Positions 36,632-63,405 of a DNA stretch of 64,000 bases are shown piece by piece. The notes under the pieces were generated by a model that saw only the letters and a list, made by a program, of their open reading frames with translations, was not told the DNA's origin and did no database searches. How positions within the stretch are numbered: position 1 is the stretch's first letter; the number at the start of each line of letters is the position of its first letter. The translations under genes were made by a program, and so were the position numbers. The stretch is from Tribonema minus (Eukaryota; Sar; Xanthophyceae; Tribonematales; Tribonemataceae), in NCBI GenBank assembly GCA_017506865.1, contig JAFCMP010000029.1, forward strand, positions 400,155-464,154, read 5' to 3'.

Positions 36632-36787
36632 ATGCCACCGCCATGGCTTCGCAGGAGCGCTCTTAACAGGCAGATCGCATTTGGCCTCCTGTTATGGGCC
36701 GCTGAGGTCGTTGGCGATCCTACCGCGCACAAGCGCCAGCACCATCGTCTGTTGCCGGAGCTCGAGGAGAAAACGATAGGCGGGCTG
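36632..36787 (+). other. Signal peptide exon of the GSDH-oxidase gene
   Basis: The ATG opens MPPPWLRRSALNRQ, a basic n-region, followed by the hydrophobic core IAFGLLLWAAEVVG and a polar stretch with DPTAHKR. The exon is exactly 52 codons and ends at GTACGA in phase 0, matching the phase-0 acceptor at 38420. This suggests secretion through the ER. The long intron to 38420 leaves some doubt about the link. Confidence 0.5.
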
Positions 36788-39700
36788 GTACGATTTTACA
36801 GGCGACAACGACCCTGTAATCGCCAACAAAGATGTGAGCCCGCACTTGTTGCTTACTTGCTATCCGTGCTGGCTGAAAAGGGCTTTCGCTTTGTTGTGAT
36901 GGCAGTGTTACTTGAAGAAATTGTGTGTTGCTACAACATTTCGCTTGCACCTGGTTCTCTGCGGGCACAGATGCATGTTCATCAACTCATGCGGCCTTCA
37001 ACGTAGCAGGCTGGAAAATCAAATTTCTCCCTCAGTCAGATAACCCAGGTTGGAGGCAAACAGAGGCTGGGGGACGCTGAAAATTCTCTGATCTGAGAGC
37101 ATACATGAAAAGAAAGACATAAAAGTGTGATGCGAACGTCATGGCTGTTCTACAGGCGGGCCGGACGTATTTGCACTGAATAATTCGTACACTACCCCTT
37201 GCATGCCACTCATCATTTTCAAAAGCGTATACCACTTGAGCTACTGCCGCCGCTGACAGAGCTCCTCTGCGCATTTCTCACAGAACCGTGGACTGTGCCG
37301 CCGGGGTCCTTGCTGCGCAGGAGCATCCCCATGCCAAATGTGAATTCATTAATGTGATTTGCACATGCAAGTGGCAACAATTTGTTAATGCTGACGCAGA
37401 ACAGCAGCCATGCAGCAAAGTGACAACGCAATCAACTTGCGTGACATGAGCCTGCTCGGATGTCTTCTGCAGTGAAGCGCGCTGTGCTTCATCAGGCAGC
37501 AGCGATCAGTTGTTTTGCCGGCATATACTTCCACTCTTGCGTGTGACTTCGTTGTGATCAGCCCTGCTCGTTGCGCCTTCCATGGGAAGAGAAAAAGAAG
37601 ACCTGCCAGATTGTATTGGTCACCCAGCTTGTTGGTCACTCAGCTTGTTGCGCCATGCACAGTAACTAACATCCCACTCTTTGTTGACCGAAGAGGTGTT
37701 ATCACGATCAACTTGTTGTTGGAGATCACAAGCATGAAAATGTTGAAACTGTGTCCTAAAGCAGCTTTTTTAACGGTTATTTCAGGCAACACCTCTTCTG
37801 CGCTGCATGGCCTGTAGCAGGCTTCTGGCCGCTGAAAGGCGATGAATAGCGAGAAAAACATGACGTGCCGTACACCACTCCGTCTTCCATACGCTTCATC
37901 ACGGTCTGCGGTGTACTTACTAATGGTGCTAGCCTGAGCACGCCAATACCTGTGTGCACTCCGCAGCTGCTCAACCCAACTTGAAGTCCTGGCGCACCCC
38001 TGCACCTACGCCGTAGAGGCAAAGAACGGGAGGGGAGGGGCTCTTGGGACAGATATTGGCCCTGATTTCAATATACATCGTCCTTGAGCGCAGGTGAACT
38101 TCGTCGTGTGGAGCAGCACTGGGGATTTCCCAGGGGAAGACGACAGCGCGCAGGCTGTTGTTTGAGCATCACCCACTCCATCATCACGAGAATGTAAATC
38201 TTCCCCTCAGTTGTTGTCTCTTGCTAGCACCACCATGTGTCTACTTCCATCGACAGGTGAATCTGGTCGTACAGCAGCATGGGGAGTGCTCCCCGCAGGA
38301 GAAGGCAACAGCGCTCACATTGTTGTTTGAGCACCGCCACTCCATCATCACGATAATGTAAGCCAGGAGAAGGCAACAGTGTTGACCCTGGTGTCATTAT
38401 ACATCATTCATGCATGCAGGTGAACCTCGTCGTGCAGCAGCACTGGGAATTTTCCCCGCAGGAGAAGGCCACAGCGCTCAGGTTCTCGCCCATCTCCGCG
38501 CACGTCATCACGATACACAAGCACGGCGAGGTGCGGCTGTACGACAGCGTGGACGTGGACGGCGAGGACTACAAGACCATCCTCAACATTGAAGATAAGG
38601 TGAAGTTGAACTTGAAGTACGGCAAATTCAACACCTGACTACTGCTGAACATTGAGAACAGGGTGACGTCAAACATGAAGTAGGTCCTTCGATCCTTTTC
38701 AACGCTTGACCACAAAGATCATCCTCGACATTGTGGACAAGGTGAGGTTGAACTTGAAGTAGATTGAAACGTGAAGTGGGGCCACTTCAACACCTGACTG
38801 CTGCTCAACATCAGGACAGGGTGAGGTTGAACGTGAAGTAGCGCCACTTTAACACCTGACTACAAGACCATCCTCAACATCGAGGACAAGGTGAGGTTGA
38901 ACTTGAGGTAGGGCCGCTTCATGACCGGAATCATGGTTACTGGCGGTGCCATCGGCGCGCCCCTGGTGTGTATGACGTCATACCCATTGTCATTATTATT
39001 GGGGTATGTTCGAGTATGGTGACTTGGGTGGCTCCCTGTGTCTCTGCATGTCACGTTTGCAGTTTTGCCTGATCTTGCGGTACATTCCACGATGATCGCA
39101 GCTTACATGAATCCATTGATGCCAATAATGGTCGTTTTGATCTGTGGATACTGGGAACTCGAGGTACCGTCGGTGTGCCTCTGTGTCATTGACAACGCTG
39201 TAGGACAGGCTGTTTTGTGGTATCTGCTGGTGCCACCTGGTGGTGTCATCTTTGGTCATGTTGACTGAGGGTGCCATCGGCGCGCCCCTAGTGTAAGTAT
39301 GTATGACACCGTACCATTACCATTGCCACACCGTGCCGGCCGCAGACCCGCTGGTCGTCGCTGTACGTTTCGCGGCGTATTAGAGCTACTAGGGTTAGGG
39401 TAGGGTATGCAGGTATGCATGTATGTATGTGGATGTGTGTGCTGACGCTGATGCTCATCAAGTTGCTGCGTGAGTCGCGACTCTCATTCCGCCGTGCAGA
39501 GACATCATGCAATCGTCGCTCTTTTCGCTGCACTTTTTACAAGTATTCCGCAGCCTCAAAGCCTCCTCTGCTCTTGCTGCACTTTCTATCAGGAAATGCA
39601 TACTTGACAGCCTCAAATTGTCCTTGCTCTTTCATGCAATCTTCAGGTGTACTCTGCGGACGACCACGGCATGGTGGGGTTTGCCTTCGATCCGCAGTAC

Positions 39701-42700
39701 GGCGTGGACAGGAACCAGTACGGTGAGTTCAAGTTGAAGTTGTAATTTGTGCTGTCCCCAACCTTGAAGAGCTGATGGTCGAGTAAGATGCACATCGGCA
39801 GGAGACCTATGCTACTGAGCACCGAAGAGCCAAAGTATCCAGTACGGTGTGCATGTGGTGGAGACCTATGCTGCTGAGCAGTGCTGCAACCGACGCAGGA
39901 AGTCCGCGTGTGCATGCCTGCGCGCGCCTGCACTTGACGATAAGGAAAGAGGCTGTTGTGTCTTTGCATACGCCCTGTTTGCATGCACCGTGGCCATGGC
40001 ACATGAAAAATGGCCACTACTAAGTGTGTGTGCTACATGTCGCTGCAACATGGGTTCATGCCAGGGCCACCAAAACAAGATCAAGTACAATGTAAGCATG
40101 AGCTCGTCGAGGTGTACTCTGTCTGACCCCCCCCTCCCCACCCGCAACCCGTGCCCCCTTCCCTCCTCCCCTTCAATATCAGCTTACCTGTTCTACATGT
40201 CTCAGCTGGGCCCCGCGCACGCCGTGAGCAAGACGACATTCCCCAATCCAGCGGTTGGGGCCACGCGCCCCCTGGACTGGGGGGACAACAACTGCCCGCT
40301 TGAAACGTACGGAATTGGTATTTACCCAACTTAAGTGAGAAATGATGGCTTCTTTATGTTCTGACATCCTAGCTTTAGAACGTCTCAACTTTGTGAATTC
40401 AAATGTACGGCTTAGCTTAGGGTTAGCTGTAGGACTGACCACACTCTTTGGGCTTGCGCGTAGCGGCGGCGAAGATTGCCATGTATGACCCACATTCAAC
40501 CTTGAAGTTGCGCTTATGAACTCACATCTGCTGATGGCTCAGACAGGAGCAGCTAGACCTCGAGGCGCTTCTAGACTTCTCTTCTTAGAATCAGAGAAAT
40601 TTGGAAAACTGGTTGGAAACGCCGAGGGCGCCGACTTGAAGTGCGGAGGGCGCTCACTTGAAGTGCAACCTTCACCCTCCCCCCCCCCCCCCCCCCCCCT
40701 GCCCCCCCCCTTCCCCCCCCGTCAGCAACTGCGAGAAGCTGAGCGTGCTGACACGGCTCTTGATTGACCTGGCCGCCAAGACGGCAAAGGAGGACGCCGT
40801 GCTGCTGGTGGACCAGTGCGGCGGCTCCGCCACGCACGGCGTCGGCGCCATCAACTTTGCCAGCACAGGTGAGCGCTGCTGCCTCCGGCGCGCGGAGTAC
40901 AGTACACGCAGAGTACAGTACACTGTTCGTCAGTGCGCAAGGTACTCAAGCAGGTCTGGTAGCTCAAGGGGGGCGGCGATCGTATGATGTTGACAGCAGT
41001 GCGAAGCGTCCGCAACGCACGGCGTCAGGGCCATCGACTTTGCCAGCTCAGGCGAGTGCTAGGTGTACTTTGTCTCGCGCATGCAGGCTGGCATGTATTC
41101 TGAGTGGACCAGTGCGGCGGCTCCGCGACGCACGGCGTCGGCGCCATACTTTGCCAGCACGGGCGAGCGCTGCTGCCAGGTGTACTTCAAACAACCATTT
41201 TGTCGCGCGTGCTACTATGTTGCGCGTGCACGCTGGTGTGTATGGATGGTGGACCAGTGCGACGGCTCTGCTACGCACGGCGTTGGTGCAATCAACTTTG
41301 CCAGCACGGGCGAGCGCTGCCAGCTCTGGTGCACACGCGCTAGGCGAACAGTTGCAAACAGCTCAACCGACGGCATGGTTTGTTTTTCAACGGGGGCGTT
41401 TCTTGTTGCAGTACATTGGACTCGCTCATAGACGCACAGCAACTCTGTCAAGTACCTTTGAAAAATGTGAAACATCACCGCAGCGGTCGTGTTGCCTCTA
41501 CCACGGCTAGAGCCTGTCACCCTGCTGCTGTCGCTGACCCTAAACCTGCTACCAACCCTACCCCTCCACCTGCCGCTGTTACAGAGGAGATGATCATCAT
41601 GTACGGCGAGCACGCGCAGTACGCCCTCTTCAACTACAATATGCCCGCGGTGAGTGGCTGAGCACTGCCAGTGCTGAGCGCTGCTAACACTGCATAAGTG
41701 CCTGCTGCACAACCCATACCTGCTGCACTACCCCTACAGTGCTTCTCGTGTACAACAAGCACGCGCAGTGAGTGAGCCAGCATAATATCTTGGCTGTCAA
41801 GTGACCTCATAGCCACCTTTCGCAGTACAGAGCAGATGCTCTTATTCATACTTTGGAAGGACTCTAAATCACAATGGCGAGGATGCGCAGTACGCCCTCT
41901 TCGACTACGGCATGCCTGCGGTGAGTGGCAGTGCTGAGCGCTGCCGACACTGCACGACGCCTTGTTTCAGTTTGACGATGCTTCGTGTGTCCACTGCGCC
42001 CCGATATCAGATGCACGCCCAAGCAGGGCTTCGACCCTCATATCACGTGGTTGAGCGTTGCCACAACTGCGGCGCCGTGTTCAGTAGGAGCAGATGTTCA
42101 TCACATACGGCGTGCATGTGTATTAGTACGCCCGCTTAAACAATGGCATGCCTGCCCGTGGAGAGCAGTTGTGCACAGCTGGCACTGCCCGGCCATGTGT
42201 TCCAGTACTGATACTGTGTAATTTGCAAGCTGGCCTGACAACGACGTTTTTTTTTTTTGACAGTCATCCCTAATTTTAGCCATGACAAAGCCTACCTATA
42301 CAAAATGCAACACCTGTAGTATGTGCTCGTTCAGTTTTGTAAAACTTGGCCTATGTGGTGTGAGCATACCAGATTCATTGTCTAATAGTATAGAATTCGA
42401 GTGAATGCTGCACCATCTACAGCCTTATTCTTGAGCGCTTTAAATATTGGGGCACCAACTGGACGTTCTTACCGCATATACTTGTCCGGTTGTACAAGAC
42501 TTGGCCTTGTGAGTGTGTGTGTGCAAATCAGAGTCATCGCAAAAAGTAGGAAAATTTGTGCCTGCTCCAACATCTGCTGCAGAATTTTGGTCTAACAAGC
42601 ACTTCAATTATTGGTACCTGACCAAGGCTTTCCTCTCCCGTCAACTTCAACTTCACCTGCAGAAGGACGCCTGCTACGACCCCGCAAAGCTGCCGGGGCA

Positions 42701-45700
42701 GGGCTGCTTCCACGCGCAGCGCGACGACTTCATAGACGGCAAGGGCATCCGCATCGCGCCAGACTCGTACCGCAACAGGTCACACACCACAAAAATCAGA
42801 GCGTGCACTATGCTTAACCCAAACCCTAACCCTAACCCTCGCATCAGCATGACGACTTCATACACGGCAAGGGCATAGTCTACGCAGGGCGCCAGACTCG
42901 TATTGCAACAGGTGAGTGCGGTTTGCGTCCCCAGACCCTGATCCCAATCTACTGGGTTTTTTCCCTCGCCATTCATACATGGCAAGGCGTCCGTGTTGCG
43001 CTGGAACCGTACCGCAACAGGTGACACACTGCAAACATGTGCGCGCGCACTGAGCACGCTTCACTCAAACCCTAACCCTTACTTTTGTTCAGCGCGACGG
43101 CTACAGACACGGCAAGGGTATTGGCATCGCTTTAGAGGCGTACCTCAACGGGTGATGCACACACACCAAGTGAGCACGCTGAGCTTCGCCAAACCCTAGC
43201 CATAACCCTCGCACAGTGCGATGACTTCATAGTCAAACTCGTACTGCAACAGGTGGCGTTCCGCAACAAGTGGTCACGACGAGCATCACTAAACCCTGAA
43301 TTTAAATTCTCGCCCTGCGCCAAGACCCTATACATAGCAAGGTCTTACTCATCGCTCTAGAGTCGTACCTCAACAGGTGACGCGCCGCGTCAAATGTGCG
43401 TGATGGACCTCGACCGTAACCCTCGCCCAGTGCAACGAATTGAAATATATGGCAAGGGGATCCGCATTGCGCCAGATTTGCACCGCAAAGGGTGACACGA
43501 CAAAACCAGTCACTGTGACTGTCATCTTCTAAGCCTCCTCCCTAAACCCAACCCTAACTCAGCGCCATATCTCAACTGGTGACGCACCGCACCAGGTGAG
43601 GCTGATGATGAGCATGGCTGCCAGAGTTGCCCTTAGATTTGCCCTTTAATAATGCACCGTGTGCCAAAAAGTTGCGCTGCACACACATGCGCTTGCTGAC
43701 CTGTTGTTGCAAGTGCGGCTTTAATTGCACTCTGCGAGCGCGCCTGTGCGCCCAAACGCGTCTCCTTTGAAGAAAAACTGTACTGAAGTGTTCGTGCTTG
43801 ATACGTGCTCAATCACTACGTACTTACTGGACTTGAGACGCTGAGTTCGGGTAGCGTGAGGAAAAACAACTAGCCCTGAGAACAGAAGTCGCCTGCCGCT
43901 TCCACTCAGCCTGGCAACTTCAGGTTGTCACACGGCACGGCTACAGCATAACCGTGCCGGCAACCTGAGAACCCAAGGCTAAGGCTGGGCGCGTCAATAC
44001 GGCCGTTAAGTTCAACATCCGTACAAGCAGCACTGATAGAGCATTGCATACATTCTGACGCACTGAATTATAGCCAAGATGTGACCGCGACTCGTTCATG
44101 TTGCCAAGTCAAGTCATCAGGTCAAGTCATCAAGTACACGGGCCGCAGAGTTCCAGCTCTGAGGTACAGTAAAGTAGTAGAGGATAGAGGCCGCTGTGGG
44201 TCTGAGGCCACAACTTCACATCTGCGGACAGCAGTGCTCCACAATGCTGTGTCCCCATGTATGTGCAGTGGGGGCCCTGCAACCATTGAAAGTTTTACCA
44301 GTACAGTGCACTTGAGCAGGGGGAAGCTTTCTTTCATTTTTTTACTTGCGGCACCGCGTAACTTACACAGCGGCTGCAGCGTACGCATTCAGCACAGTTC
44401 AAGTAAAAGTTGAAGATCATCAGAGCGTTGCACATGCACAAACTTCTCCAAAGCGTGTGCAACCCAGCAGCATCTTACCTTTCAACTTCCTTGTGTCGTG
44501 TTTGCGCAGCGGCGGGTACGCAGTCGATCAGCCCCTGCTCAAGGACGTGGACGACATGGTGTCAAGCAAATATATAAATACAAAACTTCCAAGTCTGCGA
44601 GAGTGCTTTGTGTAACTCTGAAGTATCTATGGTACTAGTATGACGCGCATCTATACATTGTGAATTCATTGAGGGCCTGCTTGTCTCGTGCCTGCGCGCA
44701 GCGGCGGCTACGCTGTCGAGCAGCCCCTCGTCAAGGACGTGGACTACACGGGGTTAATACCAGCACAAACGCTGAAGTTTGCAAGAGTGCTTTGTCTAAC
44801 TCCGCAGTATCTATGATACACATATTATGGGTGCTTATTCAAAGCACATCAACCCTGCTTGTCTCATGCTTGCGCAGCGGCGGTTACGCAGTCGACCAGC
44901 CCTTCGTCAAGGACGTGGACTACACGGTGTTAATACAGTACTTCTATAAAACCTGAAGTTTGTAAGGGTGCTTTATCTGACTCTGAAGTATCTATGGTAC
45001 AAGTATTATGCGCATACATACAATATATGTTCATTGAGAACCTGCTTGCCTCTACTTGTGCAGCGGCGGTTATGCAGTCGACCAGCCCCTCGTCCAGGGC
45101 GTGGACTACACGGTGTTTGTACGACTACAAAATCTGAAGTTTGTTGAAGCGCTTTGTGTAACTCTCACATATCTATTGTTCAAGTATGATGCGGGTTTAC
45201 ACACAGCACATCGACCCTGCTTGTCTCGCGCTTGCGCAGCGGCGGTTACGCAGTTGACCAACCCCTCGTCAAGGACGTGGACTACACGGTTTTTGGCAAG
45301 GGGTTCCGCAACCCCTTCCGCTCCTTCATCGCGCCCGACGACGTCCTGTGGGTGACGGACGTCGGCTCCGGCGACGAGCCGCAGACGGAGCGCATCTACA
45401 GGCGAGACTGCTTGTTGAACTTGAAGTATAGATAAAACTTGAAGTTTATATTTAACTCATCGTGACACTCTGTTCTCGCAAGGACGCCATGTATGTAGAG
45501 TGCGGTAGCAAGCAGTGCTCATCATGTGGGCGTTTTAGCGCCTTAAATGTAGAGTGTGGTAGCAAGCAGTGCTCATCATGTGGGCGTTTTGGCGCCTTAA
45601 GCGAGCTTTGCGAGCTGAGCGTCAGGGGTGATGGACGTCGGCTCCGGCGACGAGCCGCAGACAGAACGCATCTACAGGCGAGCTTGCTTGCTGTAGTTGT

Positions 45701-51700: not shown

Positions 51701-52202
51701 GAGAATCAAGCATACCTAACCTTGCTCTTCTCATGCTTTGTGTCAAGGGTGGGGGTTAGGGCAACGGTTAGAATTAGGGTAAGGGCGATGGAGCAGCGCG
51801 CTGGTGGCAGTAGATTTTGTACTGTTGACTGTTGATGCTATGCTACTGCCGCCGCTGCGCACGCCGTGTACTTGCTACTGACGTCCATCGCGTCGCGCGT
51901 CGACGTGGCGGCGCACTGCATTGCTCATGGACCTGTTGTCAATTAGGTTATCATGAGTCAGTGAAGTCAGCATGCGACAAAATAACTGCGCTGTTTATTG
52001 ATCACTCTACGCCGCTGCTGCTGCTGCCACGCGTGCTGCGCAGCGTGCCGCGCATCCTGCCGGACAACATACTGCTCATGTCCATTGCGTCACGTGTTGG
52101 CGTGGCCGCACGCTGCGACGTAAGCTGCCGCCGTTCTCGCCAGCTTCTGGCATATGTACCTTCATTAGACATGTATCACACTGTTGACTGCTCGCATTGG
52201 CG

Positions 52203-52244
<42 letters not shown>

Positions 52245-55200
52245 GCTGCGCAGCGTACCGCGCATCCTAACGGACAACGTGCTGCTCCTGTCCATCGCGT
52301 CACGCGTCGACGTGGCGGTGCGCTGCGACGTCCCCGGCCCCGTCCTGATGCAAGTGTCCCCGCTGGGCGTGGATGCCTACAACACCATCGGCACGATTCA
52401 CGTCAAGCCGTCGGATCAGCCACGAGAACCTGACCTTCCCGCCTGGGTCCCCTGCCGGTAAGCGGTCGCTGATGTGGAGAAGCTGTTCTTGTTAGCGTGC
52501 GCAAAGGTGTTGGTGTGTGTCAACAGCATCTACTCAGCACACTGTGAGGAAAACAAGGGAGGGTGGGGCCCATCGTAGGCGACGACGTGCGCGGACACCC
52601 ATCGAGCTGCACCTAACTCCAACCCTAACCCTAATCACTAACCCTAGCCTGAGGGTAAGCAAGTAGCAAGGGCTCAGATGGGAGGCCGGAGCCTGCAACA
52701 GCCGAGTAAGGGTTAGGGTAGGGTTAAGGTTCAGGTTAGGGATAGAATTAGGGTGAGGCCACTGGGTGTCCTGCCGGTGAGCAGGTGGTCGGTGTTGAGA
52801 AGCCGCTCTTACCGTGCGCAAAGGTGTTGGGTGTGTGCTGAAAAAAAACAGCGCACTAACGGTAAACATCAAGGGCCCAGCAGGGGGGTGGGGCCCATCG
52901 TAGGCGACGCTGTGCACGGACACACGTCAACTCGGATGGCAGCGTACGCTGCACCTAACCCTAACCCTAGCCTAAACCTAACTTTAGCCTGACCCTAACC
53001 CTCACCCACAATCATTATCATAGCTCATAATCGATTTATTCCTTCTTCAGTCCGGTATCAAGTGCCAGAAGTGCATGTGGGGCTACGCCATGCGGGTGTT
53101 ACGCCAAGTGTGAAGTTTTGCTTCCCGTGGTTCGGCGCTGAGCGCTGCTGCCAATCAGGGGACATGAGCACGGTGTCCCCACCGGTGAACGGACGTCGAG
53201 GTTGCGCTGTGCTGCGTGCTTGGACTTGTTTTCTGCTTGGTGTCGTTGAGGGCAGCGGACGCCTCAAACGCACCCCTCCTTTGTGTCCCTGCGAAGCTGC
53301 CCAAAGCGCCCGCTATATTGCGAGTGCCCACACGTTCTCAAGGCTGAGATCCAATTCCAGACAAACCTGGCCCTCTTCTGGAGGATGAGCCACTTGGGCC
53401 ATACCCAGCTTGGACGCGCAGGCTGCATGAGGCAATCGCCGGTGCGAAGTGTAGCCGGAGCTTCTGTCGCTCGTTATTCACCGCCACCACCTCGCAGGCA
53501 GCAGCACGCAGCAGGGCAGACACGGTGACCACACAAGTGATGACTTCGACAGTTGCTTCCGCCGAGGCGTGACGCGGTTTTGACGTTGCTCGCTGCTGCC
53601 ATCGCACTGGCGCGCAGGCCCCACTACCTGGCAGATCTGCAGCACCACGACTCACATCCGCCGCTGTCACGGCGCAACTTCAAGCGTGCCCCTCCATGCG
53701 CACAGGAAGTATAGCGTCTGCTGAGACCGCGATGCATTTTTTTCCTTTTTGAACATATTTTCATACTCTTCTAGTTACTGCACCATCATGCACTGCTTTT
53801 AGTTTCCATGGATGTCAATTCGAGGCGCCTGCATTCCGTTGCTCGCTGCTGCTACCGCACCCGTGCGCAGGCCCCACTACCTGGCCGATCTTCAACACGA
53901 CTTGCCCGCGCAGTCCGCCGATGTCGAGCTGCGCGGCGACGTGAACGGAGCACTACTGACGGACTACGCGCCGCTCTTCAACTTTGAAGTGAGTGGCACT
54001 GCATGCCACCGGCGACCGCGTGGCAGATGCGGGTGGTTGTTGATGTTGTGAGCTTTTGCCCTGAAGCCCTCGAGGCAGCGCTCTCGTGTTGAGAAGTGCT
54101 CGCGCGATGTGTGAGCGGAGCGCTGCTGCTGTGATGACGGACTATGCGCCGCTCTTCAGCTTTCAAGTGAGTGCTCTTCAACTTTGAAGTGAGCGGCATC
54201 GCGCGCCACTGGCGACCACGGCATTCCGTGGCGGGCGCACTTTGTCATTGAAGTTGTGAGCTTGTGTCGCATGAATCTCAAGGCAGCGCTCAAAGTGCTG
54301 AGGGTGCTCGCGACGGGGGTGCGGAGCGCTGCTGCTGTGAGGACGGACTACGAGATGTTATTTGAAGTACCTCAGTGCTTAGTAATTTGCGCACGCTGGG
54401 ATCTCAACGCTCTGCGGATGGCGCGCACAGCTGTTGAAGTTGTGTACTCGTGCCTTGGACGCTTAGAGGCAGCACTCGAATCGCGAGCTGTGCTCACAGC
54501 GTGTAAGCAGAGCGCTGCTGCTCACACTGCGGCGCGCACAGCCGATTCATCGTGGTACCATGTGCAGCCTGAGCCAAGCTCGCTGCCTCACTGCCCTCAC
54601 CATATGCTGGCGCACGCTAGTCTTGGTGCTGTTTTTTAAACATTTTACTCATTTAAATTGATTTATGGAAATAAATCAAAAGATCGCGGAGCCCTACTTG
54701 GGTGAAAAGGAGTGGTTGGCCGTAAGTGCCTTCCACCAATAACCGTGGTCGCCGCTGCTGCAGTCATTATCTCTGTTTTTTGAGTTCAGCCAATAGATAT
54801 GGCCCTGCTGTTGTAAACGCACGCTGTCTTTTGCACTCATTGCAGCTGGACTCCGTCAGCGAGTTCGTCATGGTGAACCTGCAGGAGCACCCCGCGCACC
54901 TGCACGTCAACCACGTGCAGCTGCAGGGTGCACCGACTTCCTTTGCAGACGTGCCGGGCTGGGTGAGTTTGCCCTGAGCGCTGCCGTGCGTGACTTTGCA
55001 CAAACCTCAACTGAATCAAAGTACCTACATCTCATCCTCATGAGACTGGAGCGCACGCTGACCTCGCTTGCTGATCTATTAACGAAAAATATCAAAGCCG
55101 AAGTTGCGTCGCGTCGACCACGTGCAGCTGCAGGGCGCGCCTACCTCCTTCGCGGACGTGCCGGGCTGGGTGAGTTTGCCCAGACCGCTGCTGTGCATCA

Positions 55201-58200
55201 CTTGCACAGACCTCAAGAATGAAAACCGATTCGAAGCATGTCTCACGCCCATGACACCGCAGAGCACGCGGACCTCACTTTCTATCTTATTGGACAAGGA
55301 ATATCAAGGTCAGGTGTCAGGTCACGTCGACCACGTGCAGCTGCAGGGCGCACCAACCTCCTTTGCAGATGTGCCGGGCTGGGTGAGTTTGCCCATTGCG
55401 TCACTTGCATCAATCTTAACTGAGTCAAAGCACGTCTCGTCGTGGTGTCGCAGAGCACGCAAACCTCATGTGCTGACTTGTCAGGCCAGGGACGTCAGGT
55501 CAGGCGCTACTGTAGGTCACGTCGGTCACTTCCAGCTGTAGGGCGCGCTGGCGTCCTTTGCACACGTGCAGGGCTGAGCGAGTTCATTCTGAGCGCTGCC
55601 ATGCGCGCTCTTGCACAAACTTTACCCGACACGCGTGTCTCGACCGCTGCCGTGTTGAGCTGCAGAACAAGAGCTTTGCCGGATGTGACGACATGCTGGC
55701 GCTGTGACTGCCAGCAGTGGTCGGCGTAGAGGATGCTCAGTCACAATTACTTTAAAGTACCACACAAAAAAGAGTATCAGAGACTACCACAGGCGGTGCG
55801 CGGGTGTCAGGCAGTGCGCGCTATGTAGCTCCTGGAAGCAAGTGATCGAGTTCTTGATGCGCACGGGTCTCAGCCATGGTCTGCCTCGCGTGTTGCGGTT
55901 GTTGAGCCTCCTGCACTTTGCTGCAGTCACACCAGGCCTTTGCGTGGCCCTGAGTTCTATTGGGATTCTCGCTGCGACCCCCCCCCCTGCCCAAACAGTT
56001 AGCACCCCCCTGCCCCCTGCACTTATTCCGCTTGCGGGTACGTAGTCAGCGGGCATCATCAACTGCCTGTAAGCTGCAGTGCTCTACTGCTTCGCGCACT
56101 GTGCTGCAAGCACGAGCAGCATAGGCGTTTGTTGTGACGGAGCTGGATAGTTGAGGTTGAAGTTGATGTTGGCCGCTGCCAGCGGATGTGCGCACCGCTG
56201 TTTGGGCATGTCACTGCTTGCGCAGCAGTAGGTTGTCGCTGCCACATCCCTGTCGCCACACGCGGGCGCGCTTTCTGCACTTCGGAGCAACAAGATCATG
56301 CTGGCAGAATGGAGTGCTTATCCCCCACCCACCCCTTGCCCCCCCCTCCCCCCCCATCCCCCCGCAGTTCCAGCCCGGGGACTGGTACGACACGGTGTCG
56401 CACCCCGTGCCCGTCACCACGCGCTTCGTGACGGACAGGTTCAGCAGAGCGATGATGCTTCACTGCCATGTAAGACGTGCTTACGACGTACATGCCGCAG
56501 TGTACTGTTTCTGGACTGTGGTGTACTCTCATGTGTCAACATAGAGCACGTACCTCTTGGTATGGAGGAGCTTGCTTACATAGTGATGCTGCATTGAAAT
56601 GTCGCCACCTGCTTGATTAAATGCAGCAGCTGTCACACAGGCTAGCAGAACGCATGGCTGCTCGTTGAGCAACAGGATCATGAGCAACTCTAGGTTGCAT
56701 GCTCGTCAAAGTTGTCAAATCAACTGCTGTTCCACTTGTACGCAGCTGCGTGATCACCTGCCTTTTTGGCGGGTTACTGGGAGTAATTGATGCTATCTAC
56801 ACAGTTGTCGCGGCAATAGATCTGGCACGGTGTGCACCAAACCAGTGTCAACATGTCCCTGACCTTGTCTGCCAGAGGCTCAAATCCTTGCTATGCTTTG
56901 CTTGGTGCACTCTGTGACAGTGCTCGCGCTGTACATATGCTCACAGTGCGCTGTGGCAGGTGGCGGGTAGCCTGCTCAATACTTCGGAGTACATGTCATG
57001 GTCCGAAGGTGACACTCTCCACGAGTTCACAGTCAAAACGCAAATGTAATTCGTGCTTTGCAGGTGTACGCGCACTCTGACAACGGCGTTGCGGCCATGA
57101 TGGCCATCGCCGGCAAGGGCGCAGACGCCGACGCCTCGCCGCGCTTCTTGCAGTCCGGCACGTGGCCGCTGGTGAGTTGCTGACGCTAACCCTAACCCTA
57201 ATCCTAACCCTAGCCCTAGCCCTAACCCTTAAACGTGGAAGGATTTGTAGTCGACGCCTCGCCGTGCTTCATGCAGACCGGCACGTGTCCTCTGGTGACC
57301 TGCTATCGCTAACCCTAACCCTAACCCTAACCCTAACCCTAGCCCTAAAACGTGGGAAGAACGTATAGCTAGTGTGCGCTGGCGAGTTGCAGCTGCGGGC
57401 GCGCCATGTTGTGCTCCGCAGCAACGGTGGCGGCACTGTCGTGTCCTGCAGCAATGGCGGCGGTAACAATCCCTACACTTCACAACTTCTACGCTTCAAA
57501 TCAACTCCTACACTTCAATTACTACACCAATTCATCGCGACCAGCAGCTCCGTCCCATGCGCATTACATGTACCGCTGACAGTGACGCTGGGGGTACATT
57601 GTAACATGCACTTGCATTGCATTGCTGCCAGACATGCATATCAGGCGCAGCTCGACCTCATAGCGCAATGGACCACATGCTGTCCGGCACGTGTCCGCTG
57701 GCGAGTTGCAGCTGACGCCCGCGAGCGCTGCTGCTATACTTCAAGTGCTTCTGCTCCATTGTGATGACAAGTGTAATAGTCAGGCCTGAAGTGATAGGTG
57801 CTTCAAGACCCCTGCACTCCTGAGCGCTGCTGCCACACGTCGCAACGGCACGTGCTGCTGGCACACGCTCTTGACGGCAGGTGGGACGGCGCTGCCCGCC
57901 ACAGAACTTGAAGTTGTACTGAACCGCTGTGCAGCGTTGTTGAAGATGTGATGTGAGCGTGCACTGTGATCGGACAGCACCTCCGTCTTTTCAAACTTGC
58001 TTTCACGGAGGCCCGCTACAGCCGGCTACGCTCCTTGTGCCGTGCGCAAGGCCCTGCGCATCTGCCCGCCGCCCCTGCATGTCGCTGCACGGACGATTAC
58101 AGCACATTGGCCTGTGCGCTTTTGGCGCCGTGCTATGCCGTGCACGGTCGCTGCTGATGATGATCATCCATGTGTGTGAAGGCATCAGCGCTCTGTTTGC

Positions 58201-61200
58201 CTGTAGCATTGATCGGCATCAGCCGCTTTCCATTGCCTAATCATTCTGCGTATACATTGGTATGCAAAGAGTGGCACATTCTTCTTCCTTTGAAGCATCC
58301 TTTGATGTGATAAGTGATTAGTGTTTCTGATAATCCCGCAGAGTTGGCTGACGCAGGAATCCCATGAGCTTGTTCTTTCTCAGATGTACCGTTGTGACAC
58401 GGCCTTGGCTGAATCATGTCGCGCCTTACGCCCCGCAGGCAATCCCTACCGCTGGCAAGGTCGGCATAGGTCTGGAGGGGAAGATGGAGGCAGAAGACTT
58501 TCTTGATGAGGGGACCAGGTGGGGTACTACCACCCTGATACATACCTACATACCCTAGTCAAATACCATCCTGATACATACCTACCTACCCTCGCCGAAT
58601 ACCCCTACCCCCCCTGCCCCTAGCCTTGTCGACGAGACAGTGTGATAGGGCCAGCAGCGGGGCTCTGTGCGTGAGAAGAGGTTTTCACACTCTTTTAGGC
58701 AACTAAACGCCAAGTCGTCCAGAATCAACGCATCTGAAGATGGCTCATTTTGTTGCGACTCTGGGGTCAGGATTGGGGTCAGAGTCAGAGTCAGGGCTAG
58801 GGGTTCCTGGTTCTCTGCAACTAAGCACCTGCGGTCACAACAGCCTCGCAATGGCGCTGGCACAATTAAATACTTTCATAAGGATATCTACCTGCTGACA
58901 ATGACGGCTTAGAACTTGCAGCCGCCAGACCTGCTGCTAAAACACGAGTCCCATGATTATTAGAAGTACGCCTCAAGTATTCAAAACAAGATGCTGCGGT
59001 TATGCTGGCGTTGCCGATACTATCACAGTGCACACCAGTTCAGGCGGCGCTGTGTACTCAATAATATAGATATACTTCCGCTTGAGGGGCAAATTCCCCA
59101 TGAAATATGCAAGATGTGCAGCTCTTATGCTTGTGCAATGCGAGCTCTTGCAGCGTCATGTGCTGACCTGCAACTGAAGTGTACTCCTTATGTACTGCGC
59201 AGCCGTCGCCTACATGGACACAGCAAACACCAACTCAAGTGGCACCATGTACTGACCTGTACTTGAAGTGTACTCAACATGTACTCTGCAGGCGTCACCT
59301 ACATGGACACAGCAAACACCAATTCAAAGGGCACCATGTACTGACCTGTACTTGAAATGTACTCTCCGTGTACTCTGCAGGCATTGCCTACATGGACACA
59401 ACGGACCAAAATATGGGCGGCAACATGTATCGCGGCGACGCGGCGGTGGACATTGAGGCATGCGGCGTGTGCAGCATGACCACCAACACGGGCTTCGACA
59501 TCAACTTCAACGAGAAGGGCGAATGGTTGAAGTACACCATCGAGGTGAGCTGAGTATGATCACTGCCATGCATGGGCTGACATTTCACCTTCCCTTTGTG
59601 CATGTGTGCATAGGGCACATGGATGTGTAGGAATGTGATGTTCACATACTCTGTGTTTCAGGAGTAGTAGCATCAGTGAAACACAGCTTTCTGGACATGA
59701 CCGCAAAGACGCGTCTCTGCGCACGTAGCAATCAAAAAGCGGTAGCGGCTAGACCACCTGATAGATGCCGCTTGTCCTGGTAGTCACAACTGATGTCAGC
59801 AAGGGGGTCTCGAACGCCGTAATGATGGCTGCCTCAGCAGCAGCACCGCTGAATGGTGGCCTACGCACCGAACAGCTCATTATTTGATGCATTGCATGAT
59901 AAAAAGTACCGTATATAGTGCTTCAAATCCCCAGTGCAGGGCAGACTTTTGGGGGCTTGAGCATCTGAGCCTGAGCGCAAGCACTTCAACAAACTCACGA
60001 CGCCATAAGTACACTTGCGGATTGACTTCGGCCTCATGGCAATACCGGCGATGCCTACAACAATGAACGTGCATCAGCAATTTTGCAAGGCTACATTACT
60101 TCAACTTATTTCATTCTCCAGCATGCCAACTTCAGTTTGTAACTGTGCGCATCCCCCCCGCCATCTCCATCCAATGCAGGTGCAGGACACGGCCTACTAC
60201 ACCCCCTCTATCACCATCTCGGGCCCCCTCCCCGACCCCCCTGCTCCGCCGGCCCCCCTGGTCCCCCCCCCACCACCACCTAAAGGCCCCCCCGTCATCG
60301 CCAAAACGCAGGGGCCCCCTGCACGTCTGCTGTTGAAAGGTAGCACCGCTCAACGCAAGCTACCACCGGGGGACGGTTTGCCTGCAGGTGACCGTCAGCG
60401 AAATCGTGTTTATTGAAAATATAGGCACCGTGTCTGATTTGAATTGGTATTGCCTACCAGCTAGCGCTCTGCTTTAGCTACGTGCCGCGGGCTATTGGCT
60501 TGTGCCAGACAACTAGTTGTGGCTCTACGCTGCCGCTTCCCTGAGTTTCTTCGCAAAAGCTTGACATGCTACTTCATGCGCCTGTTCCCAATCAGCCGAG
60601 GCGACTGCAGGAGGGCTACAGCCGGTTGGCGTTGCCAACAGCATCATGTCTGCGATGGAAGCAGTCAAAGAGGCGCCCACACAGTCGGTCATATGCATAT
60701 GCCAGAGTAGTCTGAGGCACGTCTCTGGGTTGGCGCGCGCGAGCGTGCATGGCAGCGCTCCACATCCCGTGAAGAGCAGGATACAGCTGACAGGGAATTG
60801 GCAGTTGGGCGCCGCCGACAGCATGGTGGCCAGCCTCACTTGCCAAGCGAGCGCTCAGAGGCGGTATTGGCAGCAACACATTTACCGCCAGCGCGCCGTT
60901 ACCCTCCTATACATCTGCTGTACTACATGACAAACCCGTCCCCGCCAGCCTGCCCTCCCACGGACTGCTGGCGCTGATGCCCTCACAACTTGTTGATAAA
61001 CCCTTGCTAGTCCTAACCTGCACCCTTTCCCTAACTCCACTCTACTCGTTGCAGTCCCCCCCGTCGATGATCCTGCTGCCCCCGCCGCCCCCCCAGTTGC
61101 GCCTGGCAAGCCTGCGAAACCGGTAAAGCCGGCCAAGCCCGCGCCTCTGGCGGTGCAGATGTACGTCGCCGTGACCCCTGGGGCGTGGTTCGAGGCAGCA

Positions 61201-63405
61201 GATCCTGTCTGCGCGGATGGCGCGCCCATGGCCACGCCGGTGAGCACTGCTGTGCACGGCAGAGGGCTAGGATTCGGGTTATGTAACAAGTGGCGGTTCT
61301 TGCAGATGCGGGTGTCATGTTTGTAGGTTTGAAGTTTGTGTTGATCTGCAGGTGCGCTAGCAAGCGCGCAGTATGTGCAGTCAGCACGGACAGCGCGCCC
61401 ATTGCCACGTGATTGATCACTGCTGCGCATATGAGAGCTAGGGTCACGCATCATGTGCAAGACATGCCTTACAGGTTCTGGGAGTCATGCATGTGTGCGC
61501 GTAATATTTCAGTTCCACCAACAGGAGCATGACATGTATAAAGTCTGCGCGGACGGCGTGCCCATCCCCATGCCGGTGAGCGCTGCTGCGCATGCTAGGG
61601 CTAGGGTTAGGGTTGCGCAGCGAGTGAAGAGTGTGCATGCCTTCGTAGGATGCGAGCGTGATGGATGTCGGAAATGAACGTTGGGCAGCTTGTTGTTCAG
61701 ATGCTTAAGGTAGATGCACGAGCGGTGCTACCACCACGTCAGCTTCTGCATGAAAAATACATGTCAGACTGCGCGCTGCATTTCACTTGGCGGAAGCGCA
61801 GCACACAGTGCACAGCATGACCCACCAAACTGCTCTGGCAGATGAGCATCACCGGTACTGAGCTTAGGTCACTTCTCACAGCGTCCAACCACGATTGCTT
61901 GGGTGGGAGGGCCGTGCAATGCGCTGTGCCACCAGTTGAAGTTTGTACTTGTCTGACTCGTTTACCTCCATGTGGCATGGCGGCACACTGACTCAACACC
62001 ATCGTCAACAATACCAAAGCCCAGTACACATTTTGTCGGGCAGGCTGAAAATTCTGTGTCACGTCCTCAGGAGGCTCATCCCTCACAATAGCCCCTCTGC
62101 AAGCGGGGCGCTGCATGCACCGAGCGCCTCCTCCGCACGCAGCCCCACCCCTGAGCACTGTGATCTCTCTGCAAGAGCCTGAGCAGAAACGCGCTGGGCG
62201 CCGCGTGCACCGAGCGCCTCCGCGCAACGCACCCTCTCTGGCATCCGTTAATCACACATTCATGCATCATATTATCATGTTGTTCGACTGCGCTCTGCGG
62301 CGCGCAGGGCACCGTGGACTACGTGACGTACGCCGCCTTCCCCTCCCCCAAGAACCTGCTCCTGTACGAGGGCGCGGTGTGCGTCAAGCTGTGCGTCACC
62401 ACCGGCGGCTTCAACATTGACTTCTTTTCGCTGGCGCCCGCGCTCGATGTGCCGCCGCCCCCCACTGGGCCTATCAACGGCGCTCCGGTGAGTGTCATAG
62501 GCGCGTCTGGTGTTGGTACGAGGAAGCAACAGGTCATGGACGCCCCGTAGGCAGAGCAGCGAGAGAAGACTACAGAGGGTCGAGCTGCTGAGAGCATGAA
62601 GCGAGTTAAGGTAGGTGGGCAAGCAACGCGGCCCCTGAGAAGGAAACGTGCTCAACATGGAAAGACCCAGAGAATGTGGGGAGGCCCAGAAACATCTGAA
62701 GAATATGTTGTGACCCTGCACTGAACTGTAGCCGACCTCCCATGACCTAATTAACAGCAGACCTAAGAGAGCCTGCAATTCCAACATCTTGTTGTGACCG
62801 CGCCCATGATGCTGATGAGTGGCACCTTGCTATAAGGCCTGATCCTGGGGCTCCGCTGCATACAGAAGCAGCGCCCTTGTCGTCATTGATGCGCACTGGG
62901 CCCATTGCTGGTGCACCAGTGGTAAGAAACAGGATCCTTTATGTGAACGTGCACGCCCTAGCCACGGCGGGCCCCCGTCAATAGCGCACTGGTACGCACA
63001 GTAAACAACAGCTTTCTTGTTCTGCAGAGTGCGCCACTGGGCCTATCGATGCCGCGCCGGCGCGTACAGGTGTGCGAGTTTGTTAATCTCTGGGAGAAAA
63101 CGTCAGCAGTATGTTGCCAACTGCTACTTGGAGGTATGTTGCCAACTGCTACTTGGAGGTAGTTCTGGTGCGCTGATTGCAGAATTTCAAAGTGCATCGT
63201 GTGCGCTTTTCAGGCGCTTCGTGTGCAGTATTTCAGTGCAACGCTCCCCGTGCCGCTAACCCTCGCCTAACCCTAACCCTAACCCTAAGCGTATCGCGCG
63301 TGTTGCGCTGTACAGGCCGCCCTCCCCGGCGTGGTTGCTGCAACGGCATTCGACCTCGGTACCAACGCCATGGTGAACGGGGTTCTGGTGCCCAAGCCAC
63401 CCAAG
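36632..63405 (+). CDS. Secreted GSDH-multicopper oxidase-CBM6 fusion protein (3' partial)
   Basis: Twenty-six exons join in unbroken phase to 1106 residues and run off the window: 36632..36787, 38420..38599, 39647..39722, 40183..40306, 40726..40868, 41585..41649, 42663..42778, 45240..45401, 45805..45889, 46191..46410, 47732..47871, 48805..48867, 49644..49787, 51419..51510, 52254..52457, 53871..53988, 54683..54721, 54846..54962, 56368..56469, 57064..57171, 58439..58523, 59381..59544, 60180..60339, 61055..61239, 62308..62487, 63316..63405. The order is: signal peptide (1 to about 28), GSDH/HHIP-like beta-propeller (about 55-345), multicopper oxidase (about 350-815), CBM6 (about 825-915), Pro/Ala/Lys linker, and further CBM6-like modules. 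Weaker donors are GTACGA at 36788, GTACGG at 40307, GC at 45402, GTGGCT at 45890 and GTACTA at 58524. The GSDH-oxidase join rests on the small exon 45805..45889. If it is wrong there are two adjacent genes. Confidence 0.65.
38085..38365 (+). repeat. Two upstream copies of GSDH exon 2's start
   Basis: CAGGTGAA with the VNLVVQQHWEFSPQEKATAL coding segment (real at 38420) is present in decayed form at about 38092-38195 and 38252-38362. Both copies keep a CAG acceptor and the TCATCACGA word, and both end in ATGTAA. Three or four donor-side copies of the same exon (ATCCTCAACATTGAGGACA with AGGTGA) lie at about 38640, 38715, 38805 and 38868. Confidence 0.8.
40985..41330 (+). repeat. Three downstream copies of the GSDH His-motif exon end
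   Basis: The exon end coding DQCGGSATHGVGAINFAST with GTGAGCGCTGCTGCC (40812-40885) recurs at about 41000-41060, 41102-41180 and 41245-41325. The last copy still reads DQCDGSATHGVGAINFASTG. The copies have GCGAGC or GCGAGT in place of GTGAGC at the donor, so they are disarmed. Confidence 0.85.
41735..42150 (+). repeat. Downstream copies of the GSDH MYGEHAQYALF exon
   Basis: Decayed copies of 41585-41660 lie at about 41740-41772, 41828-41937 and 42055-42150. The middle one still reads AQYALFDYGMPA followed by GTGAGTGGC. A polymorphic reader could mistake it for a real exon. Confidence 0.75.
42830..43500 (+). repeat. Six decayed copies of the GSDH GKGIRIAPD exon end
   Basis: The real edge at 42715-42780 (CGACTTCATAGACGGCAAGG to CGCAACAGGT) is echoed near 42850-42915, 42970-43025, 43095-43155, 43215-43260, 43325-43382 and 43430-43495. 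Spacing is about 110-125 bp. The first few copies are preceded by CCCTAACCCT runs. The GGTGA donor context survives in most. Confidence 0.8.
44505..45120 (+). repeat. Four upstream copies of the GSDH GFRNPFR exon start
   Basis: TGCGCAGCGGCGGTTACGCA and the following codons (SGGYAVDQPLVKDVDYTV; real exon at 45240) occur at 44507-44570, 44694-44755, 44873-44937 and 45056-45120. The period is close to 180 bp. Each copy carries the acceptor CAG and keeps the frame for about 18 codons. The flanking CTGAAGTTTGNNAGNGTGCT intron text is duplicated with it. Confidence 0.9.
45486..45602 (+). repeat. Two-copy 58-bp tandem repeat
   Basis: The block GTAGAGTGNGGTAGCAAGCA followed by GTGCTCATCATGTGGGCGTT occurs twice in direct succession. 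It is followed at 45628-45680 by a copy of the GSDH exon end (DVGSGDEPQTERIYR) with the same CTACAGGCGAG donor-like edge. Confidence 0.75.
45887..45953. repeat. Near-perfect 27-bp inverted repeat at an exon end
   Basis: Arms 45887-45913 and 45927-45953 are complementary at 26 of 27 positions, with a 13-base loop. The proposed donor (GT at 45890) lies within the left arm. The loop and inner arm ends are a reverse-complement copy of the start of the next exon (CGGCGAGTACCGCGTG at 46195-46210), and a direct decayed copy lies near 46055-46095. The DNA or RNA could form a strong hairpin. Confidence 0.85.
46495..46605 (+). repeat. Downstream copy of the first copper-site exon
   Basis: GGCCTGCACGTCAGCGGC through CACACGTTCACATGCAAGAT repeats 46300-46405. 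It codes LHVSGAAGGDDVTVVVEPGE in frame, then degenerates. It is preceded by a TTGAAGTTGAAGTTGAAGTT run. Confidence 0.8.
46960..47310 (+). repeat. Tandem intron repeat of about 190 bp with G runs
   Basis: Two units share G-rich starts, GGCGCTGG/GGGGCTGGTGCCAT, TAGCGGCTNGTCAAGCGCGA and GTGCTGAGNAATGTTGGTGC. They lie in the intron between the first and second copper-site exons. No coding role was seen. Confidence 0.6.
47400..47635 (+). repeat. Two upstream copies of the HWYHPHHHG exon start
   Basis: GTGACAGGCGGNCTGCACTG followed by GTACCACCC (real at 47725) occurs at about 47413-47465 and 47578-47630. Both retain an acceptor. Both keep the HWYHP codons; the second changes the distal His codons to Asn. 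Confidence 0.85.
47885..48200 (+). repeat. Three downstream copies of the GGMPEALAGMRQ exon end
   Basis: GAGGCGCTGGCGGGCATGCG and GCAGGTATGTATGTATG (real at 47848-47880) recur at about 47895-47985, 48005-48105 and 48112-48205, with the same TGTAGAGGACAA lead. Copies are 85-95% alike by eye, so the duplication looks recent. Confidence 0.9.
48440..48800 (+). repeat. Intron tandem repeat of about 120-130 bp
   Basis: TTTGCATCTGGTGATGCCA, GTCACATGCTC, CATATATGCCAGTGACCATT and TAGGTATTGATA recur in two good units and one partial unit just before the exon at 48805. These units contain no exon sequence, so purely intronic segments are amplified too. Confidence 0.75.
49975..50745 (+). repeat. Three downstream copies of the oxidase NGCDTFEMAVTQGQW exon end
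   Basis: Copies at about 49990-50085, 50293-50382 and 50645-50740 reproduce VNGCDxFEMAVTQGQWTRL and RMLHHAHA with the GCGGTGAGC or similar donor. The spacers contain CCCTAACCCT and GGGTTAG tracts. The first two copies keep an intact frame and donor over the whole echoed part; the third is eroded. Confidence 0.9.
51845..52115 (+). repeat. Two upstream copies of the SIASRVDVAVRC exon start
   Basis: Decayed copies at about 51850-51930 and 52015-52118 precede the real exon at 52254. All share CTGCGCACGCCGTGT or CTGCGCAGCGTGCCGCGCAT, a CTCNTGTCCATNGCGTC segment and GTGGCGGCGCACTGC-like text. A CTG run at 52203-52238 sits directly before the real acceptor. Confidence 0.75.
55090..55590 (+). repeat. 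Three downstream copies of the HPAHLH exon end
   Basis: CACGTGCAGCTGCAGGGCGC and the VPGWVSLP edge (real at 54913-54972) recur at about 55112-55182, 55327-55397 and, more eroded, 55520-55580. The copies start downstream of the HPAHLH codons, so none could supply the copper ligands. Confidence 0.85.
57180..57350 (+). repeat. Interstitial telomere-like CCCTAA tracts
   Basis: CTAACCCTAACCCTAATCCT and CTAACCCTAACCCTAACCCT runs (57186-57232 and 57308-57350) follow a real donor and its echo. The same motif occurs at 1-45, 160-200, 255-300, 465-550, 10921-10942, 25195-25222, 25280-25330, 42817-42840, 46145-46165, 50468-50500, 52617-52650, 52955-53010, 63250-63292 and 63768-63812. The reverse (GGGTTAG) occurs at 45779-45804, 52709-52752 and 61600-61615. 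Confidence 0.8.
58439..63405 (+). other. CBM6-like carbohydrate-binding modules and linker
   Basis: The first module spans exons 58439, 59381 and the start of 60180. It reads GIGLEGKMEAEDF, IAYMDTTDQNMGGNMYRGDA and VDIEACG, then GEWLKYTIEV joined to QDTAYYTPSITISG, which matches the CBM6 pattern (EAEdF, GGnxYR, VDI, GeWlxYTvxV). A Pro-rich tail and a PAKPVKPAKP-type linker follow. A second unit has YVAVTPGAWFEAADPVC, YVTYAAFPSPKNLLLYEGAV and GGFNIDFFSLAPA. The exon at 63316 (LPGVVAATAFDLGTNAMVNG) opens another module that continues outside the window. Family knowledge: CBM6 binds beta-glucans, xylans or agarose; the ligand here is unknown. Confidence 0.7.
59200..59345 (+). repeat. Two upstream copies of the CBM6 exon start
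   Basis: CTACATGGACACAGCAAACA with CTGCGCAG or CTCTGCAGGCGTC upstream occurs at about 59200-59260 and 59286-59345, before the real GCATTGCCTACATGGACACA at 59381. The ATGTACTGACCTGTACTTGA text between them is also repeated. Confidence 0.85.

Follow-up and report, generated by a model that had tools for sequence, protein, structure and literature searches.

A Tribonema minus gene family predicted to encode GSDH-like, multicopper oxidase, and CBM6 domains in one protein, and a copy that lacks the join as assembled

We analyzed a 64-kb stretch of Tribonema minus DNA (the window), taken from the end of contig C29 (464,154 bp) in a 158-Mb assembly; the contig ends where the window ends. The assembly also contains two rbcL fragments; the one searched is closest to Rubisco chains such as 8bdb, 6ftl, and 5mz2, several of them diatom enzymes of the red type, so that the plastid is most likely of the red lineage. 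Very probably, the gene in the window, as assembled, is an internally deleted member of a family in which the intact genes each code for a single secreted or surface-anchored protein with GSDH-like, multicopper oxidase (MCO), and CBM6 parts. An intact member would read, in order: (i) a signal peptide; (ii) a GSDH-like propeller; (iii) a short Pro/Ala linker; (iv) a laccase-type MCO; and (v) one to three CBM6-like modules, to which one copy would add a C-terminal membrane helix.

We modeled 23 exons in the window copy and one possible first exon (Table 1), choosing splice sites by score among phase-compatible pairs. The GSDH, MCO, and CBM6 exons are colinear and all lie on the + strand. Of 20 junctions that can be compared with a diverged copy, C517A, 19 agree in intron phase; the sole disagreement involves an exon that is split in the window and unsplit in C517A. 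Introns are mostly GT-AG. The donor following exon 45240-45401 is GC, and no good donor follows 60285. Over the possible first exon, another copy, C155, is identical to the window at 155 of 156 bases; in the window, the sequence matching the end of the C517A signal-peptide exon does not stay in the frame set by the start. A previous sequence-only reading had described 26 exons of continuous phase over 36632..63405. Its exon work was largely right, as the phase agreement with C517A indicates, but no continuous phase was found across 45402-46190. Nor does the gene end at 63405: the contig ends there, and C155 runs on for about 7.5 kb with further CBM6-like exons.

Table 1. Features of the gene copy in the window, in window positions
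Feature	Position	Strand	Basis or remark
Possible first exon, signal-peptide-like start (MPPPWLRRSALNRQIAFGLLLWAAEVVGDP)	36632..36787	+	Resembles C517A signal-peptide exon, by eye; uncertain
GSDH-like domain, first part, 7 exons	38420..45401	+	Pfam GSDH 31.1 bits; splice sites and phases
GSDH exons 1-4	38420-38599, 39647-39722, 40183-40306, 40726-40868	+	
GSDH exons 5-7	41585-41649, 42663-42778, 45240-45401	+	
Bridge exon of the sequence-only reading	45805..45900, end approximate	+	Intronic in C155
Deletion scar	45889..45928	no strand	7,528 bp of C155 swapped for 40 bp
Multicopper oxidase, 10 exons	46191..57171	+	Pfam Cu-oxidase_3 and Cu-oxidase_2 above cut-off; copper ligands; phases
MCO exons 1-5	46191-46410, 47732-47871, 48805-48867, 49644-49787, 51419-51510	+	
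MCO exons 6-10	52254-52457, 53871-53988, 54846-54962, 56368-56469, 57064-57171	+	
CBM6 module 1 with Pro/Ala-rich inserts, 5 exons	58439..62487	+	Profile vs solved structures; phases
CBM6 module 1 exons	58439-58523, 59381-59544, 60180-60285, 61055-61239, 62308-62487	+	
Second CBM6-like module, start only	63316..63405	+	Gene continues past contig end

C155 aligns with the window in three blocks, of 12,953 bp (98.4% identity), 3,387 bp (97.7%), and 14,677 bp (98.7%). The first and second blocks are separated by 7,528 bp in C155 and by 40 bp in the window (between 45888 and 45929). The missing 7,528 bp holds exons e9-e13, which encode the C-terminal portion of GSDH, the bridge, and the beginning of the MCO; none of these five exons was found in the window, and all five were found in C155. 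The window MCO is consequently without its first ~35 residues, including the first cupredoxin strand with its PGP motif, which is present in C155 and C517A. The exon ending at 45401 leaves two codon bases and the next MCO exon begins at a codon boundary; joined directly, the 45401 and 46191 exons read seven codons and then a stop, and no phase-compatible donor/acceptor pair was found close to these exon ends. A candidate bridge exon at 45805 was rejected, as it falls in C155 within the intron that separates e8, whose product ends in ERIYR, from e9, which starts with VDLKQDW. The window copy is without the join and cannot make the fusion protein by ordinary splicing, an example of how reading across a missing stretch can mimic an in-frame fusion.

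We searched the assembly for GSDH-like loci with the window's GSDH exons as query. Counting the window, 20 loci were found, and at least 18 of them are followed on the same strand by an MCO match at a distance of 0.8-8.3 kb, the gap being shortest in the window and in contig C452. The loci without a downstream MCO are C154, a single weak match, and C162, where the contig runs for another 2.7 kb before it ends. About 14 loci are left if C29, C452, and C155 count once and C549, C343, and C193, which have nearly the same scores, count once; because 96 of 196 candidates were scored in the MCO search, locus counts are lower bounds.

A single exon with AG/GT borders spans the GSDH end and the linker, and runs to or into the MCO, in C457, C290, and C155. 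In C457, this exon (567155-567476) contains the last GSDH strand, the linker, and a segment aligning with the first MCO strand, and its C290 equivalent (413773-413483) has the same end point. The C155 exon (128614-128285) leads from the last GSDH blade across the linker as far as the segment ahead of the MCO, and the first MCO strand (LPGPLMRME) is the exon next after it. The complete C457 model, with exon borders placed by hand, has eight exons with GT-AG at all seven junctions and encodes 1,315 aa: a signal-peptide-like start is followed in order by GSDH, the linker, the MCO, and CBM6, and the only stop is at the end. The linker is conserved in C22 (GPTEPPTAAPTAAPFAVP), C457 (GPTDPPTAAPTPAPFAVP), and C290 (PPPTNAPTAAPFAAP). 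Intron positions nevertheless differ: in C22 an intron lies directly after the linker, within the joining stretch, and in C517A an intron divides parts that form one exon in C155. A conserved protein order with shifting introns points to one polypeptide.

We compared substitution rates between copies (Table 1 lists the window exons). Measured against C517A, the window has a dN/dS of 0.29 over 963 codons, and C155 one of 0.275 over 1,467 codons. By part, the values are 0.30 for GSDH, 0.28 for the bridge (C155), 0.28 for the MCO, and 0.28 for CBM6; all fall within 0.25-0.30, as expected of one protein. Between the window and C155 there are 8 synonymous and 25 nonsynonymous changes (ratio 1.0) and one stop, in a C155 MCO exon (979 codons). 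The family therefore appears constrained and the window/C155 locus looks relaxed, with the qualification that these numbers are small and the copies may hold consensus errors.

Two alternatives bear on these results. The GSDH-like part and the MCO-CBM6 part might be two neighboring genes, each with its own start, and MCO-CBM6 frames without a GSDH do occur at C179 and C90, where they are intronless and begin with their own signal-peptide-like start. We set this reading aside on the strength of the single exons that cross the join in C457, C290, and C155; the linker shared by C457, C290, and C22 and the colinearity of the protein across differing intron positions also weigh against it, and we regard it as very improbable. 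One polypeptide is strongly supported for the family by the genome sequence, through the bridging exons, the linker, and the arrangement at 18 or more of 20 loci; what had been claimed for the window copy is thus supported for the family but not for that copy as drawn. We also note that the C179 (L031) and C90 (L032) frames are very similar to each other.

The other alternative is that the 7.5-kb deletion is an assembly error and that the organism's window copy is as full as C155. The 40 bp at the scar form a hairpin with the right flank, placing a hairpin at the junction. Contig C452 has the same short junction as C29, so that the junction is common to two separately assembled contigs, but the three pieces of C452 show, relative to C29, 8 substitutions and 6 gaps in L011, 1 and 6 in L016, which spans the junction, and 2 and 10 in L034, with five of the gaps counted in both L016 and L034. 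Near the junction, C452 is possibly C29's haplotype assembled twice. For this reason, C452 supports the deletion weakly, and the evidence for the deletion may come from a single haplotype. The many one-base gaps between copies suggest a noisy consensus, and a contig that is a mosaic of both types (C302) also favors error. On the other side, the dN/dS of 1.0 between the window and C155 and the stop in C155 suggest relaxed constraint at the locus. Taken together, we judge an assembly error unlikely, though it carries appreciable weight, and retain the internally deleted copy as our reading of the window.

Several further features of these copies were recorded. The hairpin at 45885-45950 has a folding energy of about -39 kcal/mol as RNA, which suggests a fold-back template switch or an artefact. 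The mosaic contig C302 (L028, L038, L041, L044) is like C155 over window 50.9-54.0 kb (99.7%) and like the window from 57.9 kb (99.6-99.9%). Single-base frame changes occur in the first exon and, in C155 and C302, in the last exon, and among the 24 stretches compared there are gaps in three C155 exons, two C302 exons, and one C452 exon. We did not take these changes as proof of a pseudogene, since one-base gaps are common between copies. Many introns (window 38100-55600) contain decayed same-strand copies of neighboring exons. With the Pro-rich exons e26 and e27 counted as having none, at least one decayed copy lies within 3 kb of 9 of 23 exons in the window, 15 of 35 in C155, and 8 of 34 in C517A, which suggests that introns enlarge through local tandem duplication of parts of exons. 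By eye, window introns also contain runs of CCCTAA/TTAGGG-like repeats, for example at 57190-57350, 50480-50500, and 52600-52760.

The product had been described as secreted, which fits the signal-peptide-like starts of C457 and C517A but is incomplete for the latter. The predicted C517A protein finishes with a Gly/Ser-rich linker followed by a hydrophobic helix, both in the frame of its final CBM6-like exon, and at least this family member is probably membrane-anchored. The C457 model is without such a tail. Domain boundaries, signal peptides, and the membrane helix were all judged by eye. On contig C517 (L149, ~611452-611080), a single open frame covers the CBM6 end, linker, and likely membrane helix. 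The CBM6 end and the helix are in different frames in C155 and C302.

The joined window exons match Pfam GSDH with an E value of 1.9e-7 and 31.1 bits (cut-off 25) over profile positions 6-204 of 332, and the whole C457 protein scores 24.5 bits, just below the cut-off of 25. As a single sequence, the GSDH part gave no match to solved structures at 0.1, and we therefore used a profile for the structure search. The nearest structures are soluble quinoprotein glucose dehydrogenase (sGDH) chains (best 2e-7); no AA12 chain was recognized by name among the 10 structure matches up to E 1. Profile-profile comparison with the bacterial enzymes gave a probability of 99.4 over the full length.

We aligned five algal rows (C457, C290, C22, C155, and C517A) by profile with two sGDH-type and one Asd-type bacterial enzyme sequences (L142, L143, and L140). 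The equivalent of the catalytic His144 is kept in 4/4 rows covering the position, that of Arg228 (the Arg of RNP, beside the PQQ ketones) in 5/5, and that of Lys377, which we take to have a role in the sGDH site, in 4/5. Equivalents of Arg406/Arg408 (Arg-x-Arg before the last blade), the pair that presumably holds PQQ, are absent in 5/5 sequences, in an alignment placed here by a nearby GPDG motif that is clear in three rows. The residues in their place are N-V (C457), N-I (C290), G-V (C22), G-V (C155), and G-I (C517A), and a weak alignment of the same region with 2g8s has a non-Arg residue at that site too. The roles of the catalytic His and Arg228 are supported by PMC6881789 and PMC6881810. 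By these residues, the domain would have the fold and part of the site, and its use of PQQ is doubtful. A search for PqqA gave no match for any control.

The MCO part of the joined window exons matches Pfam Cu-oxidase_3 (5.5e-10) and Cu-oxidase_2 (1.6e-8). All 10 His and the one Cys of the four copper motifs are present in the window row, and the C22 row ends before the last copper motif. The usual axial Met site is occupied by Val, Leu, or Met in the four rows that extend this far (by eye). A profile of five CBM6 modules, the window's included, matches solved structures at 1.2e-17 (2y8k) and 1.1e-4 (2cdp). Profile search of the joined exons thus bore out the proposed GSDH and both Cu-oxidase assignments in Pfam, but the window CBM6 exons, joined and searched alone, match no Pfam family. 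C457 scores 22.4 bits against Pfam CBM6 as a whole protein (cut-off 28.9) and 28.9 bits, at the cut-off, as a single sequence. In C517A, module 1 scores 14.8 bits, below the cut-off, and modules 2 and 3 gave no match to this family.

We looked for the same arrangement outside the alga. For bacteria and archaea, we kept 80 MCO loci of at least 551 confirmed stretches and searched them with the algal GSDH profile and with a profile of three bacterial GSDHs, added because the algal one detects bacterial GSDHs poorly. With either profile, none of these 80 loci has a GSDH match in frame with its MCO. Separate GSDH-like frames lie near the MCO at 2 of the 80, L096 and L113; the bacterial profile gives 3.2e-22 at L096 and 7e-6 at L113, a weak match on the opposite strand, and the algal profile matches among the 80 at L096 only. 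At L096 (6001-8798, from a Nitrosocosmicus archaeon), a GSDH-like gene comes after the MCO match on the same strand, and the two are separate frames. A search for viral MCO relatives returned 33 pattern-matching stretches, 0 of which were confirmed. We found no description of a GSDH-MCO-CBM6 protein in open-licence papers, including passages of PMC6881789, PMC6881810, PMC11685980, and PMC9052079. These are known domains in a combination that we have not found described, as far as these searches reach. The family places a dehydrogenase-fold domain and an O2-reducing copper oxidase in one protein, at over a dozen loci in one alga, and compact genes such as C457 make a concrete biochemical question testable.

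Our best reading of the intact protein is a surface-held copper oxidase in which the catalytic role of the propeller is uncertain. The CBM6 modules would hold the protein on surface polysaccharide, where the MCO would oxidize its substrate, perhaps a phenolic or a metal ion, and reduce O2 to water; the propeller may bind or position a partner or a sugar. The sequence-only reading had instead suggested a relay, in which a PQQ-bearing GSDH domain oxidizes sugar and electrons pass to the MCO and on to O2. The fusion of the two domains, the retained His144, Arg228, and Lys377 equivalents, and the intact copper ligands are in keeping with that idea, but the missing Arg406/Arg408 pair weighs against a sugar-to-oxygen relay. 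PQQ would also need an outside source. We rate a true sugar-to-PQQ-to-copper relay as a possibility, though one less probable than the surface-held oxidase, and we consider the relay as it was proposed improbable. Quite improbable, too, is that the intact C457, C290, and C517 proteins are self-contained cell-surface oxidases, in which carbohydrate held by CBM6 would be oxidized in the propeller, with bacterial PQQ or another cofactor, and electrons would travel within the molecule to copper and O2.

Each part of the surface-held copper oxidase has known relatives. The MCO resembles bacterial three-domain MCOs and laccases (2xu9, which we take to be the Thermus laccase, and CueO) in its sequence and four copper motifs. 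Compared with the CBM6 modules of 2y8k and 2cdp, presumably those of Clostridium Xyl5A and a Saccharophagus agarase, the algal modules have Pro-rich inserts and sit behind an MCO. The GSDH-like domain keeps the His144 and Arg228 equivalents of Acinetobacter sGDH (1c9u), a stand-alone enzyme, whereas it is without the Arg406/Arg408 pair and is fused to an MCO. Hedgehog-interacting protein (HHIP) has the same propeller type (0.03, profile vs solved structures) with different partner domains; it acts by binding and is not known to be a PQQ enzyme. The third domain of the fungal AA12 pyranose dehydrogenase CcPDH is a CBM1. CcPDH is likewise a multi-domain GSDH-fold enzyme with a redox partner domain (PMC6881789), but its partner is an AA8 cytochrome b, whereas that of the algal protein is an MCO.
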